Below, one piece after another: positions 2,501-38,859 of a stretch of 64,000 nucleotides of DNA. How positions within the stretch are numbered: the stretch's first letter is position 1; each line of letters opens with the position of its first letter. A program made the position numbers and the translations under genes. The DNA lies in the NCBI GenBank assembly GCA_021299035.1, contig JAJTGD010000001.1:1-64000 (forward strand), read 5' to 3'. Under the pieces are notes generated by a model. The model made no database searches, was not told where the DNA came from, and saw only the letters and a list, made by a program, of their open reading frames with translations. Source of the stretch: Oxalobacteraceae bacterium (GTDB lineage: Bacteria; Pseudomonadota; Gammaproteobacteria; Burkholderiales; Burkholderiaceae_D).

Positions 2501-2566
2501 AGTGTCCTCCTGAAGCGGCATGGTGTGCTTGTGCCAAGGCGATGTCAATCTCTGGAGATCAAACCC

Positions 2567-3019
2567 ATGCTGGTAAGAGACTACGCGAATTTGAATGTCG
2601 TGTGCTGTGAGCCGGATGCCCCGATCGCGGAGGTCGCGGCACTGATGCGGCGCCACCACGTGGGCGATGTGGTGGTGGTCGACAATCAGTTAGATGGGGC
2701 CCGGATACCGATCGGGATCGTTACGGACCGCGATATCTTGGTCGAGACCTTGGCATTGGACGTCGACCCCAAGATGTTCTCGGCGGCCGAGCTGATGAGT
2801 TCGCCTGTCACCACGGTGCAGGAAGACGCCAGCCTGAACGAGGCATTGGGGGTCATGCGCGGGAAGAAAATTCGGCGGCTTCCAGTGGTCAATCGTGCCG
2901 GCGGGCTGTTCGGGATGATTACGTCAGACGATGTGATCAACCTGATTGCATCGGAATTGTCGATGGTCGCAGGATTGATTGTCGAGCAGCCGATTAGGGA
3001 AAGTCGGCTCAGAAAATAA
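2567..3019 (+). CDS. Two-CBS-domain protein
   Basis: The product is 150 residues if started at ATG 2567, which has GGAG nine bases upstream; the longer frame from 2525 lacks a good site. It consists of two CBS domains, roughly residues 7-66 and 77-135, with the typical ends GIVTDRDI and GMITSDDV and the typical ELMSSPVTTVQEDASL linker. Paired CBS domains form a Bateman module that binds adenine nucleotides and usually regulates another protein or acts as a stress sensor. No catalytic domain is fused. The gene is divergent from the DUF4404-like gene. The partner protein cannot be told from the context. Confidence 0.88.
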   Translation: MLVRDYANLNVVCCEPDAPIAEVAALMRRHHVGDVVVVDNQLDGARIPIGIVTDRDILVETLALDVDPKMFSAAELMSSPVTTVQEDASLNEALGVMRGKKIRRLPVVNRAGGLFGMITSDDVINLIASELSMVAGLIVEQPIRESRLRK

Positions 3020-3214: not shown

Positions 3215-3898
3215 TCATCGGCCAACCCAGCCACCACAGACCGGGAAAACCTGGCCCACAAAGCAATCGGCGTGTTGGCTGGCCAGGTAGGCACAGAACA
3301 TCGCATCCTCGCGTGCGCTCACAAGACGACCAAGCGGCACTTCGCGTTTGAGTCTTTCTTGGAACGCTGGATTGGTTTGCACCTCGGGCGGAAAATACGT
3401 GGGGTTTTCAACGAAGTTCTGAGCGATCGCATTGACCTGAATACCTTTGCTGGCCAGTTCGGTACCGACTGCTTGGACCCAGGCCAGTTGTGCGCCACGG
3501 GCCGCGCTGTAGCTTGAAGCGCGCCGCATTCCACGCAAGGCAGATGCGCTCCCAATCAACAGAATTTTCCCGCTACCGCGCGCCAACATCTGCGGCAATA
3601 CGGCACGGGCAAAACGTGGCAGCGGATCCACCATCGCAGAAAACGCATGCCGCCACTCATCATCCATCACCTCGGGCACCGCTGTGGTGGGCGCCGGAAT
3701 ACCCAGATTTAGTAGCAGCACATCGATAGCGCCGGACTCGGCCAACAGCCGCTGCGGATAGTCGGGCTCGGCAACAAGGCCATCCGCTGAAATCAAGTCA
3801 GCGCCACACTCGCGGAAAACCTCCGCTAGCGCCGGCCCCATGAAATCCGATGCCTGCGTCAATAGCACACGCTTGCCAGAGAGATCAATTGACTGCAT
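3215..3898 (-). CDS. Halohydrin dehalogenase-like SDR-fold protein
   Basis: The 227-residue protein has an SDR fold but departs from redox SDRs in the way halohydrin dehalogenases do. The glycine-rich NAD motif is replaced by T14-QASD-F19-M-G21, which fits T-X4-F/Y-X-G. The catalytic set is S117-X12-Y130-X3-R134, with Arg where redox SDRs have Lys. NNAG is degraded to NLG. The C-terminal half (PTYFPPEVQTNP, then GQVFPVCGG) follows the pattern of known haloalcohol dehalogenases such as HheC. These enzymes convert vicinal halohydrins to epoxides without a nucleotide cofactor and can open epoxides with small anions such as azide, cyanide or nitrite. I infer the function from motifs; the subtype and natural substrate are unknown. 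No clear partner gene adjoins it. Confidence 0.82.
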   Translation of the reverse strand: MQSIDLSGKRVLLTQASDFMGPALAEVFRECGADLISADGLVAEPDYPQRLLAESGAIDVLLLNLGIPAPTTAVPEVMDDEWRHAFSAMVDPLPRFARAVLPQMLARGSGKILLIGSASALRGMRRASSYSAARGAQLAWVQAVGTELASKGIQVNAIAQNFVENPTYFPPEVQTNPAFQERLKREVPLGRLVSAREDAMFCAYLASQHADCFVGQVFPVCGGWVGR

Positions 3899-3992
3899 GT
3901 CGTCATCTCCTTGTTAGACGACCTCGATCATAACGGAGTCGCTTGCGCAGGCGCATCCCACGCCGCCCATTAGGCACCTAGTATCGGCACCC

Positions 3993-5174
3993 ATGAGAAT
4001 TCTGGTGGCACATAACGCCTACCTATACCGCGGTGGCGAGGATACGGTGGTCGAGGCCGAGATCAGCTTGCTTCGACGGTATGGGCACGACGTCATGCTC
4101 TACCGCCGCGATAACGCTGAGCTTGACGCTCTGCCGCGTTGGAAGGCAGCAGCCGATAGCGTATGGTCAAAGCGCACCATCGACGAAGTCGGGCGCTTGT
4201 TAAGCGGTTTTCGGCCCCACCTGATGCATGTACACAATACCTTCCCATTGATCTCGCCCTCGCTGTTTGGCGTTGCCGATCGATGGGGTGTGCCGGTCGT
4301 CAAAACCTTGCATAACTTCCGCCTGCTCTGCCCACAAGCCATGCTGATGCGGAATGGACGTTACTGCGACGACTGCGTTGGTCGCTGGCCTTGGCGTGCG
4401 GTGCTACATCGATGCTACCGCGGCTCGCTGGCACAGACTGCGGTCAGTGCGGGTGTGCTATCAGCGCATCGCGCACTCGGCACATGGCGATCGCGTGTGC
4501 ATCGTTTCATCGTACTGAACCAGATGTGCCGCGAGATTTTTGTTCGCGGCGGACTACCCGCTGAAAAGCTTTGCATCAAACCAAACTTTGTTGAGGCCGC
4601 CGGTGCGCCCGGCGATCATCTACGTTCTGGTGGCTTGTTCATTGGCCGACTCGCGCCTGAGAAAGGTGTATTAACCTTGGTGCAAGCCCTTCAACAAAGA
4701 CCAAGCACACGAATCACCGTGTGTGGCAGTGGCCCGCTGCAGAGCGTGGTCGAGCAAAGTAAGCAACTGGATTATGTCGGCTTCGAACGGGGCGAAGCAC
4801 TGCGAGCGCGTATCGCGGGCGCTGCGTTTCTCGTGATGCCGAGCACCGGCATCGAGAGCTTTGGCTTGGCTGCGATTGAAGCATTCGCATGCGGCACGCC
4901 GGTCATCGCGAGTCGACACGGTGGCTTGCGCGAAATCGTCGAGCATGGTCGGAATGGTCTACTGGTACCACCGGGTGATTCCAAAGCGCTTGCCGAAGCG
5001 ATGGATTATGCATTCGCTCACCCGATGCAGATGCGGCGAATGGGGATGGAGGCATATCAGACCTACCTGGCGCGCTATACGCCCGAGCGCAACTACGCCA
5101 CCCTGCTGAGCATCTACCATCAGGCGCTGGCTCCCCTACCCACTTCACTGACTGCCGAAACCATCGATGCCTAA
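3993..5174 (+). CDS. Family GT4 glycosyltransferase
   Basis: The 393-residue protein has the two Rossmann-like domains of GT-B enzymes. The N-terminal half opens with RILVAHNAYLYRGGEDTV and carries a CDDCVGRW...CYRGS cysteine patch near residues 128-147, seen in some exopolysaccharide transferases. The C-terminal half has GLFIGRLAPEKGV and the E-X7-E nucleotide-sugar motif in ESFGLAAIEA. The protein is cytosolic or membrane-associated and transfers a sugar from an activated donor, probably to a polysaccharide or lipid-linked acceptor. It overlaps the next glycosyltransferase by eight bases, so the two are co-translated. Donor and acceptor cannot be told from sequence. Confidence 0.9.
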   Translation: MRILVAHNAYLYRGGEDTVVEAEISLLRRYGHDVMLYRRDNAELDALPRWKAAADSVWSKRTIDEVGRLLSGFRPHLMHVHNTFPLISPSLFGVADRWGVPVVKTLHNFRLLCPQAMLMRNGRYCDDCVGRWPWRAVLHRCYRGSLAQTAVSAGVLSAHRALGTWRSRVHRFIVLNQMCREIFVRGGLPAEKLCIKPNFVEAAGAPGDHLRSGGLFIGRLAPEKGVLTLVQALQQRPSTRITVCGSGPLQSVVEQSKQLDYVGFERGEALRARIAGAAFLVMPSTGIESFGLAAIEAFACGTPVIASRHGGLREIVEHGRNGLLVPPGDSKALAEAMDYAFAHPMQMRRMGMEAYQTYLARYTPERNYATLLSIYHQALAPLPTSLTAETIDA

Positions 5175-6300
5175 ACTTGCGCTGGTGCTCAATGAACCGC
5201 CTCCGTATCGGATTCCGATTCTTAACCGTATCGCTGCCTCGCCAGATGTAAAGCTCAAGGTTATTTTTTGTTGTCGACGTGAGCCAAATCGCTTCTGGGA
5301 TTTGCCCCCAATGAAATTCGATGCAACCTATTTGCGCGAGCGCATCACCACGGTCAATGGACGTTACATCCACAACAACCCCGAGGTCTATCTTGCCCTG
5401 AGCCGTTTCTCACCGGATGTAGTGATCGGCAATGGATTCAATCCTACCCATCTGTATGCGATAAGCTGGTGCGCGCTAACTCGTCGCGTCTATGTACCGA
5501 TGACCGATGGCACTTTGCAGTCCGAGCGTAGCCTTAGCCGGGTACATGTCGGCTTGCGACGCGTGGTATACCGCCGAGCACGCTCGGTAATTGCTGCCAG
5601 TAACGGTGGTTTCGCCTTGTATCAGCGTTATGGCGTACCGCGCACAGCCTGTTTCCGGTCTTGCCTGTGTATCGATAACGACAGCTTTCGCACCGCTGAA
5701 GACAACGCACCGCAAAAAGTTTTCGACTTTATCTTTTGTGGACGACTCGAGGCCGGCAAGCGGCCAGCGTTCGCCATTGAGGTGGCGGCGCGCTGTGCTT
5801 CACTGTTAATGCGAAAAACTCGCTTACTGATGGTCGGCTCTGGTAGTTTGGAAAAATCCTTACGCTTGCGAGCGCAGGCGCATGCAGCAAATGTTGAGGT
5901 AGTGTTTAACGGATTCGCCAAACAAGCTGATCTCCCCGCCTTATATCAATCCGCAAAAGTGTTTCTGTTCCCAACCGAGGCAGATGTCTGGGGTGTGGTG
6001 GCGAATGAAGCCTGCGCTGCGAGCCTGCCGGTAATCATCAGCCCACATGCCGGTGCAGCAGATGAATTAGTGGTCGATCAAAAGAACGGCTTTGTGCGCG
6101 CACTCGACCTGGAGCAGTGGGCCGATTGCGCCGCGAGCTTGTTATCCAATGACGTACTACGGCAGGCCTATGGCCAGCGCTCGCGCGTAATGGTTGAGCC
6201 CTATAATTTCGATCAATCAGCACGAGGCATTATTGAGGCGGTCAGAGCCGCAGTGGGATCTTCCACCTCAAGGAATCAAGCGGTCAGACGTCCGGTCTGA
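5167..6300 (+). CDS. Family GT4 glycosyltransferase (second of pair)
   Basis: The 377-residue GT-B protein starts with an eight-base overlap with the preceding transferase. The donor-binding half shows FIFCGRLEAGKRP and a modified E-X7-E motif in which the first Glu is Asp (DVWGVVANE), followed by PVIISPHAGAADELV. It probably acts with its neighbour in making one surface glycan. Only two transferases are present, with no polymerase, flippase or sugar-nucleotide genes, so the pair may serve a glycan locus located elsewhere. The last 25 bases overlap the end of the convergent pirin gene. Confidence 0.88.
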   Translation: MPKLALVLNEPPPYRIPILNRIAASPDVKLKVIFCCRREPNRFWDLPPMKFDATYLRERITTVNGRYIHNNPEVYLALSRFSPDVVIGNGFNPTHLYAISWCALTRRVYVPMTDGTLQSERSLSRVHVGLRRVVYRRARSVIAASNGGFALYQRYGVPRTACFRSCLCIDNDSFRTAEDNAPQKVFDFIFCGRLEAGKRPAFAIEVAARCASLLMRKTRLLMVGSGSLEKSLRLRAQAHAANVEVVFNGFAKQADLPALYQSAKVFLFPTEADVWGVVANEACAASLPVIISPHAGAADELVVDQKNGFVRALDLEQWADCAASLLSNDVLRQAYGQRSRVMVEPYNFDQSARGIIEAVRAAVGSSTSRNQAVRRPV

Positions 6301-7145
6301 TAATCCCGAACCGCCTGTTCAATTTCAGCCATCGTGTTCATGACGAACGGGCCGTATTGCGCTACGGGTTCATTCAAGGGGCGCCCTGCCAGTACCAGAA
6401 AGCGTGCGCCCTGCTCTGCCGCCGTAAATGCCGCGACATCGCCATCATTCAGCACCGCAGCGCAGTGCGTTGCCAGCGGCGTGTCTGCACCGGCAAGTTT
6501 CAGCTGACCCTCAAATACATAGGCCATCGCATTCAATCCACGCTTGATACGCTGAGAAAAACTTGCACCAGGCGGCAGTTGTACGTCGATGTAAAGCGGA
6601 TCGGTCGACAAGCCCGCAATTGGCCCGGTGATTTTTACATCATCCGTCTCCAACGTGCCCGCAATAATTTTTACTTGGCCGCCCGCGGGAAGTACATGCA
6701 CCGGGATTTCTTCTGGTTGTATGTCGCGGTAGCCGGCCGGCTTCATTTTTTCTGCAGCAGGCAGATTGATCCACAGCTGAAAGCCACGCATGCGGCCCTC
6801 TAATTGCTGTGGCATTTCAGAGTGAATAATGCCGCGGCCTGCGGTCATCCACTGTACGCCACCGCTTTGCAGGTCGCCCTGATTGCCCAAGTGATCTTCA
6901 TGCCGCATATGGCCGTCGAGGATGTAGGTCACCGTTTCAAAGCCGCGATGAGGGTGCGCAGGAAAACCGGCGATGTAATCACCCGGGTTATCCGATGAAA
7001 ACTCATCCAGCATCAAAAACGGATCCAGACGGACATCCTTGCCGCTGCCCAGGCTGCGGCGCAGGCGCACACCGGCACCGTCGGAGGTATTTATGGCGGG
7101 AATAATGCGAGATAGCGTACGAAGCGCGACGTTATCGGTTGACAT
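6276..7145 (-). CDS. Pirin family protein
   Basis: The 289-residue product starts at the ATG complementary to 7143-7145, preceded by AGAGG; a longer frame reaches 7457 but runs into the ppnN coding strand. It has the two cupin halves of pirins. The metal-binding part is seen in FPAHPHRGFETVTY, HEDHLGNQGDLQSGGVQWMTAGRGIIHSEMP, with three conserved His and a Glu. Bacterial pirins bind Fe(II) or other metals; some have quercetin 2,3-dioxygenase activity and others bind and modulate metabolic enzymes. A second, shorter pirin lies at 23325. The 3' end overlaps the convergent glycosyltransferase. Confidence 0.92.
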   Translation of the reverse strand: MSTDNVALRTLSRIIPAINTSDGAGVRLRRSLGSGKDVRLDPFLMLDEFSSDNPGDYIAGFPAHPHRGFETVTYILDGHMRHEDHLGNQGDLQSGGVQWMTAGRGIIHSEMPQQLEGRMRGFQLWINLPAAEKMKPAGYRDIQPEEIPVHVLPAGGQVKIIAGTLETDDVKITGPIAGLSTDPLYIDVQLPPGASFSQRIKRGLNAMAYVFEGQLKLAGADTPLATHCAAVLNDGDVAAFTAAEQGARFLVLAGRPLNEPVAQYGPFVMNTMAEIEQAVRDYQTGRLTA

Positions 7146-7241
7146 GGGCAAACCTCTGACCGGAAAAACTTGCATTGTACCGAGACGCGGCAAATTCAGC
7201 CGCTGGTAAGATCGGTCACTACAACACCCACGAGTCACACC

Positions 7242-8639
7242 ATGAAGTATCCCGTAATGGATGGTCTGGTCGCGCCCGAAGGGCATCTTGAGGTCTTGTC
7301 GCGGCGGGAGATTGCCAAGCTGCTCGACAACAGCCAGACCGGGCTGCACCAATTGTTTCGAAGCTGTGCGCTGGCCGTGCTGGCCTCGGCCGATTACATG
7401 GACGATGGCAAGGCGCTGATGGCAGCCTATCCGGATTTTGACATCCGCATCGTGCATCGCGAGCGCGGCATCAAGCTCGAGTTAAGCAACGCACCTGCCA
7501 GTGCCTTTGTCGATGGACGCATGATTCTCGGCATGCGCGAGCATTTATTTGCCACACTACGCGACATCCTGTTTACCAGTGCCGAGCTGGCGTTGCAGGA
7601 CCATCGCGGCGAACATGATGGCGTCGCGCTGACGGATCTGGTGTTTCATATCCTGCGCAATGCGAATGTGCTGCAAACGGATCTGGCACCCAATCTGGTG
7701 GTGTGCTGGGGCGGGCACTCGATCTCGCGCACCGAGTATGAATACACCAAGCGTGTCGGTTACCAGATGGGATTGCGTGGGCTTGATATCTGCACGGGGT
7801 GTGGGCCGGGCGCAATGAAAGGACCGATGAAGGGCGCCGCGATCGGGCACGCCAAGCAACGTATCGCGAATGGTCGCTACCTGGGCTTCACTGAGCCGGG
7901 AATTATTGCGGCCGAATCACCCAATGCCATTGTTAATAATCTGGTGATCCTGCCCGACATTGAAAAACGACTTGAAGCCTTTGTTCGTGCCGGACACGTG
8001 ATCGTCGTCTTCCCCGGCGGGGTAGGGACGGCAGAAGAAATTCTGTACTTGCTAGGGATTTTGCTACACCCAGAAAATCACGCCCTGCCCTTCCCGCTGG
8101 TCTTTACAGGCCCTGCAGAGTCGGCCGCTTATTTTCATCAGATTGATGAATTCATCGGTGCGACGCTGGGTGCGCACGCGCAATCACTGTACCAAGTAGT
8201 GATCGACGACCCGGAGCAAGTAGCGCGGCTTTGTCGCGAGGGAACGCAAGCAGTGCGAGAGCACCGCAAGCAGCAGAGTGATGCCTATTACTTCAACTGG
8301 CAACTCAAAATCGATGGCGAGTTTCAGCGCCCATTTGTACCGACCCACGCTTCAATGCGCGCACTGAATCTGCGTCGGCAGCAGCAGCCACATCTACTCG
8401 CGGCAGATCTGCGGCGCGCTTTCTCTGGGGTAGTCGCGGGTAATGTGAAGCTGCAGGGTATCCAGGAGATCGAGCGTCACGGATTATTCGAGCTACACGG
8501 CGACACCGAGATCATGGCGCAGATGGATCGGCTATTGAGTGCTTTCGTCGAGCAATCACGCATGAAGCTGCCAGGATCTCACTATCAGCCCTGTTATCGC
8601 ATCAGACCGACACCCGGCGCAATTACTGGAGCAAACTAA
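7242..8639 (+). CDS. ppnN: Pyrimidine/purine-5'-monophosphate nucleosidase PpnN
   Basis: The 465-residue protein matches the length and layout of PpnN (YgdH): an N-terminal regulatory region, then a LOG-type Rossmann domain with CWGGHSIS near 155, TGCGPGAMKGPMKGA near 185-199 and the phosphoribohydrolase motif PGGVGTAEE at 258-266, then a C-terminal extension. The enzyme hydrolyses nucleoside monophosphates to the base and ribose 5-phosphate, and in E. coli it is activated by (p)ppGpp during the stringent response. I chose the ATG at 7242 because it gives the family start MKYPVMDGLVAPEGHLE; a longer frame from 7170 has no family support. The 3' end overlaps the convergent rsuA by 17 bases. 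Confidence 0.93.
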   Translation: MKYPVMDGLVAPEGHLEVLSRREIAKLLDNSQTGLHQLFRSCALAVLASADYMDDGKALMAAYPDFDIRIVHRERGIKLELSNAPASAFVDGRMILGMREHLFATLRDILFTSAELALQDHRGEHDGVALTDLVFHILRNANVLQTDLAPNLVVCWGGHSISRTEYEYTKRVGYQMGLRGLDICTGCGPGAMKGPMKGAAIGHAKQRIANGRYLGFTEPGIIAAESPNAIVNNLVILPDIEKRLEAFVRAGHVIVVFPGGVGTAEEILYLLGILLHPENHALPFPLVFTGPAESAAYFHQIDEFIGATLGAHAQSLYQVVIDDPEQVARLCREGTQAVREHRKQQSDAYYFNWQLKIDGEFQRPFVPTHASMRALNLRRQQQPHLLAADLRRAFSGVVAGNVKLQGIQEIERHGLFELHGDTEIMAQMDRLLSAFVEQSRMKLPGSHYQPCYRIRPTPGAITGAN

Positions 8640-16878: not shown

Positions 16879-17784
16879 TTATTTTTCCAGTAAACCCGAG
16901 CGCCACTGCTCACGCAGCTTAGGGGCCTGTTCATAGGGATCGCCTGGGTCACGCGCCTGCAGAATATCCTGCATGCGGCGTTCGACATTGCCTAACGCTT
17001 GTGGATGCGAGTAGATATAAAACTGCCGCGCACGGATGGCATCAAAGGTCATCTGCGCAACCTCAGCTGCACTGACCTTACCGGCGGTGACTGCTTTTTC
17101 CAGCATGGCCTGGGAGAGTTGCTGGCTGCGTGTGGGATGTTCTGAGGGTTTGGTATCTGCCGGTCGTACGGTTTCGGACTGGCTAATCCCGGTGGGTACA
17201 AAATAAGGGCATAGCACCGACGCGCCGATGGTGGAGTCGATCAGGCTAAGATCGTGATGGAGCGTCTCGGTCAGCGCGACCACCGCATGTTTGGAGACGT
17301 TATAAACCCCCATAGCCGGTGGCGTCAGCAGACCCGCCATTGAGGCGGTATTGACGATATGGCCTTGATAAGTCGGGTCCGCTTTCTCACTGGCCAGCAT
17401 GATGGGCGTGAACAACCGTACCCCATGAATCACGCCCCACAGATTCACACCCAGCACCCACTCCCAATCCTGTTGGGTGCTTTCCCAGATCAAGCCACCT
17501 GCGCCGACACCGGCATTATTGAATACCAGGTGAATCACGCCAAAACGCTCTAGCGCCGATTGGGCCAACGACTCGACCTGTTCACCACGACGCACATCGC
17601 AGTTTTGGGACAAGACCTCGGCACCGAGAGCAACAGCGGCGGCCTCGGTTTGTTTGAGACCTTCTTGCTGAACATCGGCCAGCACCAGACGCATGCCGAG
17701 TCGCGCACCTAACAGCGCAAACTCACGCCCTAGCCCACTCCCTGCACCGGTGATCACAACAGTTTTGGCGGCGAAGGATTGCAT
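16879..17784 (-). CDS. Classical SDR oxidoreductase
   Basis: The 301-residue protein has all the classical SDR features: the cofactor loop TGAGSGLG at 12-19, the acidic residue D37 after the second strand, NNAG at 89-92 and the active site S148, Y161, K165 (YNVSK). The C terminus is extended by about 60 residues compared with core SDRs. It would oxidise or reduce a carbonyl/alcohol group with NAD(P); D37 favours NAD. Contrast this intact enzyme with the halohydrin-dehalogenase-like protein at 3215. Its neighbours are a thioesterase and an MDR reductase. Confidence 0.92.
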   Translation of the reverse strand: MQSFAAKTVVITGAGSGLGREFALLGARLGMRLVLADVQQEGLKQTEAAAVALGAEVLSQNCDVRRGEQVESLAQSALERFGVIHLVFNNAGVGAGGLIWESTQQDWEWVLGVNLWGVIHGVRLFTPIMLASEKADPTYQGHIVNTASMAGLLTPPAMGVYNVSKHAVVALTETLHHDLSLIDSTIGASVLCPYFVPTGISQSETVRPADTKPSEHPTRSQQLSQAMLEKAVTAGKVSAAEVAQMTFDAIRARQFYIYSHPQALGNVERRMQDILQARDPGDPYEQAPKLREQWRSGLLEK

Positions 17785-23324: not shown

Positions 23325-24023
23325 ATGATCGAACTTCGCAAGAGCGAGCATCGCGGTGTCGCCCGTCTGGACTGGCTCCACTCACGGCATAGTTTTTCAT
23401 TTGGTGAGTTCTACGATCCGCAGCATGTGCGTTTCGGACCGCTACGCGTGATTAACGAGGACCAGGTAAAGCCGGGTTGCGGGTTTGGCACCCATGGTCA
23501 TCGTGACATGGAGATCATCTCTTACGTACTCTCCGGTGAGCTTTCGCATCAGGACAGTATGGGTAATGGCTCGGTGATCCGACCCGGCGATGTGCAGCGC
23601 ATGAGTGCCGGTACCGGAATCCGGCATAGCGAGTTCAATCCATCGTCAACCGATGCTGTCCATTTTTTACAGATCTGGATAGAGCCATCCCAGCGAGGCA
23701 TCCCCCCAAGCTATGAGCAATCAAACATCGACAATGCCGCCAAGCGCGGCGTGTTGCGTGTTATCGCATCGCCTGACGGGCGCGAGGGCTCCGTACGGAT
23801 CCATCAAGATGCACTCATCTACGCCAGCCTGTTATCAGGGAACGACCGCGTCGAGTTCGCGCTGACACCCGAACGGCGCGCCTATGTGCATGTTGCGCGC
23901 GGGACCGTTAGCGTCAACGGTACGCGCTTGGAAAGCGGTGATGCGTTGAAGATATCGCAAGAAAGTCGACTGCTATTCGACCAAGCCGGTGATGCAGAGT
24001 TACTGCTGTTCGACCTGCCATAG
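23325..24023 (+). CDS. Pirin family protein, YhaK type
   Basis: The 232-residue bicupin starts MIELRKSEHRGVA, with the metal site in FGTHGHRDMEIISYVLSGELSHQDSMGN and GDVQRMSAGTGIRHSEFNP. This is the short pirin subgroup that includes YhaK and quercetin-dioxygenase-like proteins; the known roles are redox sensing or quercetinase activity in vitro. It is distinct in length and sequence from the 289-residue pirin at 6276. It appears to be a single gene with non-coding DNA on both sides. Confidence 0.92.
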   Translation: MIELRKSEHRGVARLDWLHSRHSFSFGEFYDPQHVRFGPLRVINEDQVKPGCGFGTHGHRDMEIISYVLSGELSHQDSMGNGSVIRPGDVQRMSAGTGIRHSEFNPSSTDAVHFLQIWIEPSQRGIPPSYEQSNIDNAAKRGVLRVIASPDGREGSVRIHQDALIYASLLSGNDRVEFALTPERRAYVHVARGTVSVNGTRLESGDALKISQESRLLFDQAGDAELLLFDLP

Positions 24024-37229: not shown

Positions 37230-37790
37230 GTGAAGGGCATCGTCTTCCGTGAATTCATCGACATGGTGGAGTCGCAGTTCTCTACTGAAACTGCCGACAC
37301 CATCATCGAAGCCTCCTCGCTGTCCACCAACGGCGCGTACACCTCGGTTGGCACCTATCCGCATCAAGAGATGGTGGATCTGGTCTCCAACTTAGCCACC
37401 CAAACCGGCATCTCAGTCCCCGATCTATTGCAGCATTTTGGCCGGCATTTGTTTGGGCGTTTCGTGGAAATTCACCCCAACATGACCAATGCCTTCAGCG
37501 ATGTTTTTTCGTTGTTGAGTGCACTTGAAAACACCATTCACGTGGACGTCAACAAGCTGTACCGCGACGCCGAAACACCGTCGTTCACCTATGAGCGAGA
37601 CGGTCAGCAGCAGATGGTATTCATCTACCGATCACGCCGCCGAATGGCCGACTTTGCCCAAGGCTTGATCGAGGGCTGCGTCGCTCATTTCAAGGAAAAC
37701 ATCACCATTCAGCGCGCCGACCTACCCTCGCAAGGAGAAGAAGCTCTGACGCGTTTCACCCTGGTACGCACCACAAATGCCAACGCCTGA
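37230..37790 (+). CDS. H-NOX haem NO-binding protein
   Basis: The 186-residue protein is a stand-alone H-NOX domain. It starts KGIVFREFIDMVE, has the haem-ligating H104 in NTIHVDVNKL, P117 in ETPSF and the Y133-x-S-x-R137 motif that binds haem propionates. H-NOX proteins bind NO, and in some cases O2, and control a partner enzyme. The start is GTG at 37230 with AGGGGG upstream. It overlaps the next gene, a diguanylate cyclase, by 14 bases, so the two are translated together. This is the arrangement of NO-responsive c-di-GMP circuits in other proteobacteria. Confidence 0.94.
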   Translation: MKGIVFREFIDMVESQFSTETADTIIEASSLSTNGAYTSVGTYPHQEMVDLVSNLATQTGISVPDLLQHFGRHLFGRFVEIHPNMTNAFSDVFSLLSALENTIHVDVNKLYRDAETPSFTYERDGQQQMVFIYRSRRRMADFAQGLIEGCVAHFKENITIQRADLPSQGEEALTRFTLVRTTNANA

Positions 37791-38859
37791 GGCGTTACTA
37801 CAGCGACGCCTAGCACGCGAGATCAGCGCGCGGCAACAAGCCGAAAGTCTGCTTGAACAAAAAAGTCTGGAAATCTACGTCGAGAGGCAAGAACGTCAGG
37901 CTACCCTGCAAAAACTGCAGGAAAGCGAAGAACGCTATCGTCTGATCGTAGAACTTTCGCCAGATGCCATCGTGGTGCAGATGGACGGACAAATCGCTTT
38001 CGCCAATCCCGCGGCGCGGCGGATGTTTGCCGAAAATAATCAGCGGCAGCTTATCGGCTCGACATTAAATGACCTGGCCTTGGAATCGGATGTGGCGCGC
38101 ACGACGGAAGATCTCAGCGAGCGTATCGAAACCAAAGCAACGCGACTCGATGGCTCCCGCTTCGAAATTGCGCTGCGCTGTTTGCCTATGACCTTCGACG
38201 GCAAAACCGCTATGCAGGTGGTGGCGCGTGATATTTCTGATCGCAAGAGACTCGAAAAGGAACTCGCCCACTATGCTGCCCACGATGCGCTGACGGGTGT
38301 CAGTAATCGCAGGGCACTGATTACCTCACTCTCTGAAACCCTGGCCTTCGCCAAACGGCATGGCATGCCGTTTTGGGTGGTATTTCTCGATCTTGATCAT
38401 TTCAAGCAAATCAACGATCAATTTGGTCATCGCGCCGGTGACCGTCTACTAGAGACCATCTCGGCGCGCCTTCGCCAATTACTTCGTCAAGATGACATTA
38501 TTGGGCGCTACGGGGGTGACGAATTTGTGTTGCTGTTACGTGGTGGCCCGGAGGCACGACTCAGCACTTCACTATTGGAACGCATCATGCAAGTAATCTG
38601 CGAGCCTGTCGATTTCGACGGTCACACATTGGAAGTGACCTGTAGCCTGGGCGTCACCGCGTATCCGGAAGATGGTGATAGCGAAGATCTTTTGATCGAG
38701 CGCGCGGATGCTGCCATGTATGCCGCCAAATCTTCAGGCCGCAATCTCTATCAGCGCTACAATGCCGACCTCCAGCAGAAACACACAGAGCCAGCACAGA
38801 TTCATCAGCACTCGATAAATCCGATGACCAGAAATCGCAAGTCATCGCCGAAGTCTTGA
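37777..38859 (+). CDS. PAS-GGDEF diguanylate cyclase, H-NOX partner
   Basis: The 360-residue protein has a coiled coil (residues 5-50), a PAS domain (51-155) and a GGDEF domain (168-335). The active site is intact (GGDEF at 246-250) and the product-inhibition I-site RxxD is present as RQDD at 237-240. It should make c-di-GMP from two GTP and be feedback-inhibited. No EAL domain is fused, unlike many H-NOX partner cyclases. The 14-base overlap with the H-NOX gene makes control by NO-bound H-NOX likely, through the coiled coil or PAS domain. No membrane segment is seen, so it is cytosolic. Confidence 0.93.
   Translation: MPTPEALLQRRLAREISARQQAESLLEQKSLEIYVERQERQATLQKLQESEERYRLIVELSPDAIVVQMDGQIAFANPAARRMFAENNQRQLIGSTLNDLALESDVARTTEDLSERIETKATRLDGSRFEIALRCLPMTFDGKTAMQVVARDISDRKRLEKELAHYAAHDALTGVSNRRALITSLSETLAFAKRHGMPFWVVFLDLDHFKQINDQFGHRAGDRLLETISARLRQLLRQDDIIGRYGGDEFVLLLRGGPEARLSTSLLERIMQVICEPVDFDGHTLEVTCSLGVTAYPEDGDSEDLLIERADAAMYAAKSSGRNLYQRYNADLQQKHTEPAQIHQHSINPMTRNRKSSPKS

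Follow-up and report, generated by a model that had tools for sequence, protein, structure and literature searches.

Locus and gene features

The window, i.e. the whole 64,000-nucleotide stretch of DNA analysed (positions 1 to 64,000 of contig JAJTGD010000001.1, assembly GCA_021299035.1 of an Oxalobacteraceae bacterium), harbours an hheD-like open reading frame (ORF) between two oppositely oriented neighbours (Table 1). No strand had been given for this ORF in the initial annotation; it is encoded on the minus strand. The Shine-Dalgarno-like hexamer in front of it is located 8 bases 5' of the ATG, and a consensus promoter scan of the divergent intergenic region detected zero promoter-like sites inside.

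Table 1. Features of the hheD-like locus (coordinates refer to the window)
Feature	Position	Strand	Remarks
Probable halohydrin dehalogenase gene of the D subtype (hheD-like)	3215..3898	-	227 aa; ATG 3898-3896, stop 3217-3215
N-terminal nucleophile-pocket motif (predicted), T14-X4-F19-X-G21	3836..3859	-	kept in 92/93 relatives
Predicted catalytic triad, S117-X12-Y130-X3-R134 (Arg replaces the Lys of SDRs)	3497..3550	-	kept in 93/93 relatives
Divergent intergenic region, 94 bp, presumed promoter region	3899..3992		AAGGAG before hheD start
Family-4 glycosyltransferase gene, divergent neighbour	3993..5174	+	positional marker
Gene for CBS-domain protein, convergent neighbour	2525..3019	+	positional marker

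Halohydrin dehalogenases (HHDHs) are defined by two motifs and divided into subtypes, as described in PMC4989007. Both motifs are found at exactly the residues named in the initial annotation. The N-terminal one (window residues TQASDFMG) occupies the place of the glycine-rich NAD(P) motif of classical SDRs; neither this cofactor motif nor Y-X3-K is present in the window protein, which carries T-X4-F/Y-X-G and S-X12-Y-X3-R of HHDHs. The two motifs are no chance pair, since they appeared in order in 19 of 100,000 shuffles of the window protein, and since the hheD ORF is the sole one among the 158 open segments of the window (at least 100 aa, six frames) to contain both of them 80-130 residues apart. 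The other SDR encoded in the window (16879-17784, minus strand) has the usual S-X12-Y-X3-K. Conservation was assessed in 93 related proteins, comprising the window protein, the best 80 of 135 relatives and those of 12 further genomes of the genus. The only exception in the N-terminal motif is an Ile at the Thr position of L092, and S-Y-K was found in 0/93.

Elsewhere in the window, a gene for a haem-NO-binding domain protein overlaps that of a GGDEF protein (37230-38859), together likely forming a nitric-oxide-sensing cyclic-di-GMP pair. Two pirin-family genes are located at 6276-7457 and 23325-24023. An ORF of 583 aa with a threonine run (408-2159) had no Pfam match at 1e-8; in the close relative L002, the ORFs on this side of the CBS gene have 105 and 463 aa. 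A short ORF at 81-359 contains a stretch that resembles it by eye.

Enzyme class and subtype

The gene very probably codes for an HHDH, as judged from its closest relatives. In a phmmer search against PDB, HheD2 (7b73, 317 bits) and a triple mutant of HheD8 (8xxb, 289 bits) ranked highest, followed by HheB chains (167 and 163 bits), 6a41 ("dehalogenase", 99 bits), and HheA and other HHDH chains (84-89 bits); FabG reductases appeared from about 82 bits downward, and HheC chains (60 bits) ranked below FabG. The best solved relatives are thus found well above ordinary SDRs, which supports the class proposed in the initial annotation. Local identity of the window protein amounts to 64.8 % with HheD2 (219 residues), 60.4 % with 8xxb (225 residues), 42.5 % with HheB (219 residues) and 40.4 % with a protein of plasmid pSA2, compared to 29-34 % over shorter stretches or at lower coverage with the correctly framed SDRs L116, L117, L119 and L120. 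Curated profiles yielded generic SDR Pfam matches only (PF13561, PF00106), and no NCBIfam model exceeded its own cut-off among the 25 matches listed of 177. An AlphaFold model (34 sequences, monomer) reached a mean pLDDT of 83.5, with parts of the C-terminal third low. The nine best Foldseek matches of this model in PDB are HHDH chains with TM scores of 0.88-0.89 by query length, 7b73 being the top match (0.89).

By identity, the predicted enzyme is assigned to the D subtype, a level of classification not given in the initial annotation. HheD19-38 are 57-95 % identical to the verified HheD to HheD6 (PMC4989007), and the values for HheD2 (64.8 %) and the HheD8 mutant (60.4 %) fall into this range. 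The window protein accordingly adds a member to a known subtype and is not a new kind of enzyme. The figure of below 30 % identity between subtypes given in PMC4989007 does not fit B and D: window protein and HheB share 42.5 %, and HheD2 and HheB 47 % (PMC5892878).

Phylogeny, the check suggested in the initial annotation and here covering B and D types, places the window protein inside the dehalogenase side, apart from ordinary SDRs, and leaves the HHDH reading standing. The tree of 46 rows was composed of 38 D-like proteins hand-picked from the 93, HheD2, HheB, the pSA2 protein and five ordinary SDRs (two of them without N-terminus, two near-identical; one truncated SDR was dropped beforehand). 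8xxb was left out because L071 represents it; HheA, C, E, F and G, at hand at most as alignment fragments, are absent. The window protein together with the D- and B-type rows was separated from the five SDRs with a support of 100/99, on long branches that elicited a program warning. A D clade excluding HheB obtained a p-AU of 0.394, which neither establishes nor rejects it; in the tree, HheB is next to the D-like rows at the greatest distance. Since the SDRs attach within the rows of the window's genus (87/67), this genus does not appear as a single clade, and a split of 8 genus rows from the other 33 was supported by 95/91. An earlier tree of 105 rows, in which 18 genus rows formed one group (95/90), was set aside: its "SDR" rows L118 and L100 were in wrong frames, and two further rows were HHDH fragments.

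The mechanism of the window protein may be outlined by analogy to characterised HHDH relatives, following general knowledge of the family. Ser117, Tyr130 and Arg134 would hold the hydroxyl group of a vicinal haloalcohol, with Arg134 lowering the pKa of Tyr130, which would then take the proton from the hydroxyl. The resulting alkoxide would displace the neighbouring halide to form an epoxide, and the halide would exit into the T14-F19-G21 loop pocket, i.e. the NAD(P) site of an ordinary SDR. In the reverse direction, small anions could open epoxides. HHDHs typically form homotetramers, a nucleophile pocket replacing the cofactor site.

Distribution, position and selection of hheD

Among the 21 genomes of the window's genus (records titled Oxalobacteraceae, Burkholderiaceae or Betaproteobacteria), 18 carry hheD at 67-100 % identity, a distribution that the initial annotation, made from the sequence alone, could not show. 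In the window's own genome, it is the sole match of its type. No match was obtained in G001 (94 % complete), G018 (75 %) and G019 (88 %). The 1.27 kb between the CBS gene of G018 and the end of its contig are taken up by a different, presumably epimerase-like gene. None of the inspected carrier loci was found to contain this gene, which hints at absence of hheD, yet in other genomes as much as 2 kb separate the CBS gene from hheD. In G019, the contig breaks off within the glycosyltransferase gene, and neither flanking gene of hheD was found in G001.

Across the wider family, the distribution is patchy, hheD being present in 36 of the 294 genomes sampled (completeness of 80 % or more; match limit E up to 1e-50) and 9 of 43 genera. 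A scan of genome contigs yielded 165 stretches with 135 relatives at a tblastn E of 1e-3, of which the best 80 show 57-95 % identity. Described as rare in the initial annotation, such enzymes are so in a relative sense: at least 80 loci (the best 80 of 135) at 57-95 % identity are known from the scan, and 36 of the 294 family genomes carry the gene. Only 1 of 72,556 plasmid records matched hheD at 1e-20, with 40 % identity. Two MAG contigs titled Rickettsia typhi (L046) and Klebsiella pneumoniae (L079) bear hheD genes grouping with Comamonadaceae or Burkholderiales rows; these titles apparently stem from wrongly named bins.

In each of the 18 carriers of the genus, 92-246 bp separate hheD from the glycosyltransferase gene; the CBS gene is on the opposite side in 15 of them, 70-2026 bp away, the longest gap (G014) containing two further ORFs of 129 and 332 aa. 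As to carriers without CBS gene, the contigs of G002 and G017 end within 200 bp of hheD, and in G009 the CBS gene is missing from the 1.8 kb available downstream. Adjacency to the glycosyltransferase gene is a marker of position, with no functional link evidenced. Comparison of the window gene with ten genus relatives revealed an intact frame, internal stops in none of the ten, and dN/dS ratios of 0.059-0.116 in seven, dS being saturated in the other three. Pairwise HheD identities correlate with those of the glycosyltransferase (Spearman 0.61, 120 pairs, 16 genus loci) and of the CBS protein (0.53, 66 pairs, 12 of the 16 loci), at mean pairwise identities of 0.76 (HheD), 0.65 (glycosyltransferase) and 0.76 (CBS protein); such a correlation, from a pairwise comparison of non-independent pairs, is what joint inheritance of the gene and its neighbours would be expected to produce. 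hheD is a stand-alone chromosomal gene at one position in the genus and under purifying selection. It looks long-kept and selected, not newly gained for pollutant degradation.

Pathway partners and gene neighbourhood

The initial annotation noted no haloalkane degradation genes nearby, and a scan of the window agrees: no epoxide hydrolase or haloalkane dehalogenase family was detected among its 53 non-overlapping ORFs with 100 aa or more (52 ORFs searched with Pfam, ORF 7170-8639 with NCBIfam; E limits 1e-3 to 1e-10; about 15 matchless). The sole haloacid-dehalogenase-like domain in the window (PF00702) belongs to a P-type ATPase. The neighbourhood was further analysed in 81 loci of 3.8-12.7 kb each (the window and the best 80 of 135 relatives). 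The six commonest ORF families were hheD and five others (12-75 loci) at a median distance of 0, which are ORFs overlapping hheD in other frames; no further neighbour family occurred in more than 7 of the 81 loci. The 63 co-directional immediate neighbours (gap below 150 bp, minimum length 90 aa, from 50 loci) scatter over 45 Pfam families. The commonest of these, DUF6172, has 5 members among the 63 and was given no weight as a functional clue.

Genus-wide, the search for epoxide hydrolases covered the EHN domain family (PF06441) only; there was no match in the window's genome (G000), and in the 19 genus genomes short weak matches were obtained in five, three of them over the cut-off. A type II haloacid dehalogenase (TIGR01428) scored above the cut-off in 19/19 searched genus genomes versus 2/14 controls. 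In G000, its gene is located elsewhere in the genome (L134:3712-4395, contig C43), between what we take to be a gyrB-like gene, which it follows, and a long ORF with the appearance of a malate synthase gene; the closest solved relatives of the product are 3umb, 3um9 and L-2-haloacid dehalogenases. In 60 family genomes, the haloacid dehalogenase was found in 10 of 11 hheD carriers versus 26 of 49 others (Fisher one-sided p 0.0196, ignoring relatedness). Despite this p value, it was rejected as evidence of a pathway partner, because 36 of the 60 genomes have it in all, kinship is ignored in the contrast, and hheD-less genomes of the genus have it as well.

Native role

HHDHs are employed to produce chiral epoxides and alcohols; the natural role that PMC4989007 and PMC11536340 give them is a presumed one. 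Regarding gene context and physiological role of hheD, the literature found consists of a remark on operons in the former and a presumption in the latter, as far as their accessible text goes: two of the HHDH genes then known are in an operon with an epoxide hydrolase (PMC4989007), and detoxification of natural haloalcohols is the role already presumed in print (PMC11536340). Since only two of the genes then known were so arranged, PMC4989007 leaves room for other physiological functions of HHDHs.

What is added here beyond the enzyme class is genus-wide carriage, fixed position and purifying selection. These, together with the lack of recurring pathway neighbours, favour a role other than recent pollutant breakdown. 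A stand-alone chromosomal gene at a fixed position in the genus and under purifying selection makes a standing role the most likely, if still tentative, reading, i.e. detoxification of naturally encountered haloalcohols or epoxides and not a recent pollutant pathway. It is backed by the close glycosyltransferase gene in 18/18 carriers, by the low dN/dS in 7/10 comparisons and by identities that parallel those of both neighbours. Counting against it are the absence of an hheD match from three genomes of the genus, the lack of an EHN-type epoxide hydrolase match in the window's genome and the patchiness in the family (36/294 genomes, 9/43 genera), a pattern that horizontal gain and loss would fit as well.

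An enzyme of the same class could instead have epoxide opening, or a reaction with a non-halogenated substrate, as its native activity, scavenging endogenous or environmental epoxides with nitrite, chloride, formate or like anions. Purifying selection on hheD would suit such a scavenger, as would the absence of a recurring halo-catabolic neighbour (no non-overlapping family in more than 7/81 loci) and the scatter of co-directional genes over many Pfam families; the nucleophile-pocket motif kept in 92/93 relatives fits halide, but also other small anions, and this reading is considered rather unlikely overall. Also unlikely, and somewhat more so, is a xenobiotic-catabolic gene that belongs to a scattered haloalcohol pathway with the type II haloacid dehalogenase encoded elsewhere in the genome. 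That dehalogenase is present in 19/19 searched genus genomes, has L-2-haloacid dehalogenases among the solved relatives of its G000 copy and is enriched among hheD carriers when kinship is ignored, and a distant relative of hheD on pSA2 adjoins an annotated epoxide hydrolase gene. hheD itself, however, resides at a fixed position in 18/21 genus genomes, on a contig of chromosomal type with core genes, and has a single plasmid match at 1e-20 (1/72,556, 40 % identity); moreover, the haloacid dehalogenase exceeds the cut-off in the three hheD-less genomes, and neither an epoxide hydrolase family among the window ORFs nor an EHN match in the genome was detected.

Generic Pfam matches and the lack of an NCBIfam model over cut-off among the 25 matches listed of 177 are what would be obtained for an ordinary NAD(P)-dependent SDR that carries the motifs by chance, but Arg replaces Lys in 93/93 relatives, TQASDFMG stands at the site of the glycine-rich motif, both motifs arose in 19/100,000 shuffles, and 64.8 % identity to HheD2 extends over 219 residues, rendering an SDR highly improbable. 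A non-functional remnant might likewise lack pathway neighbours; with an intact frame, no internal stops in 10 comparisons and dN/dS of 0.059-0.116 in seven of them, its probability appears negligible.

Returning to the standing role, it may be proposed, more speculatively, that the D-type HHDH is near-core and vertically inherited in this small-genome genus and that it natively acts on an endogenous epoxide or on a haloalcohol of natural, perhaps algal, origin. In that case, housekeeping detoxification would be the original function of the D subtype, and its activity on industrial haloalcohols a by-product. With hheD at one locus in 18/21 genomes and dN/dS of about 0.1 or below, the genus may be better suited to the question of the natural role than isolates grown on pollutants.

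Comparison with known systems

The HHDH-like gene on plasmid pSA2 of Novosphingobium resinovorum (L115:7989-8666) is located directly after an annotated epoxide hydrolase gene, and its product has S-X4-Y-X-G as N-terminal motif, Ser replacing Thr of T-X4-Y-X-G. Its setting looks catabolic, unlike that of the window gene. HheB of Corynebacterium sp. N-1074 (4zd6) shares fold and motifs with the window protein; it has Tyr in the N-terminal motif where the window protein has Phe, and, judged by 42.5 % identity, belongs to another subtype. D-type HHDHs are known from the Pseudomonas pertucinogena lineage, i.e. HheD12 and relatives (PMC6922532). These are gammaproteobacterial and their gene neighbours differ from those in the window; L009, from Halopseudomonas aestusnigri VGXO14, a strain listed in PMC6922532, is 72 % identical to the window protein. 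HheD8 (60.4 % identity) carries the same motifs. 8xxb is an engineered chain, the triple mutant A69F/M124P/R127G with chloride, and L071 (Thauera aminoaromatica S2) differs from it at the three mutated sites only. At residues 69 and 124, the window protein agrees with unmutated HheD8 (Ala69, Met124), but its residue 127 is Ala, unlike HheD8. HheD2 (7b73) originates from a gammaproteobacterium (PMC5892878), a host differing from that of the window, and is like the window protein in both motifs, at 64.8 % identity.
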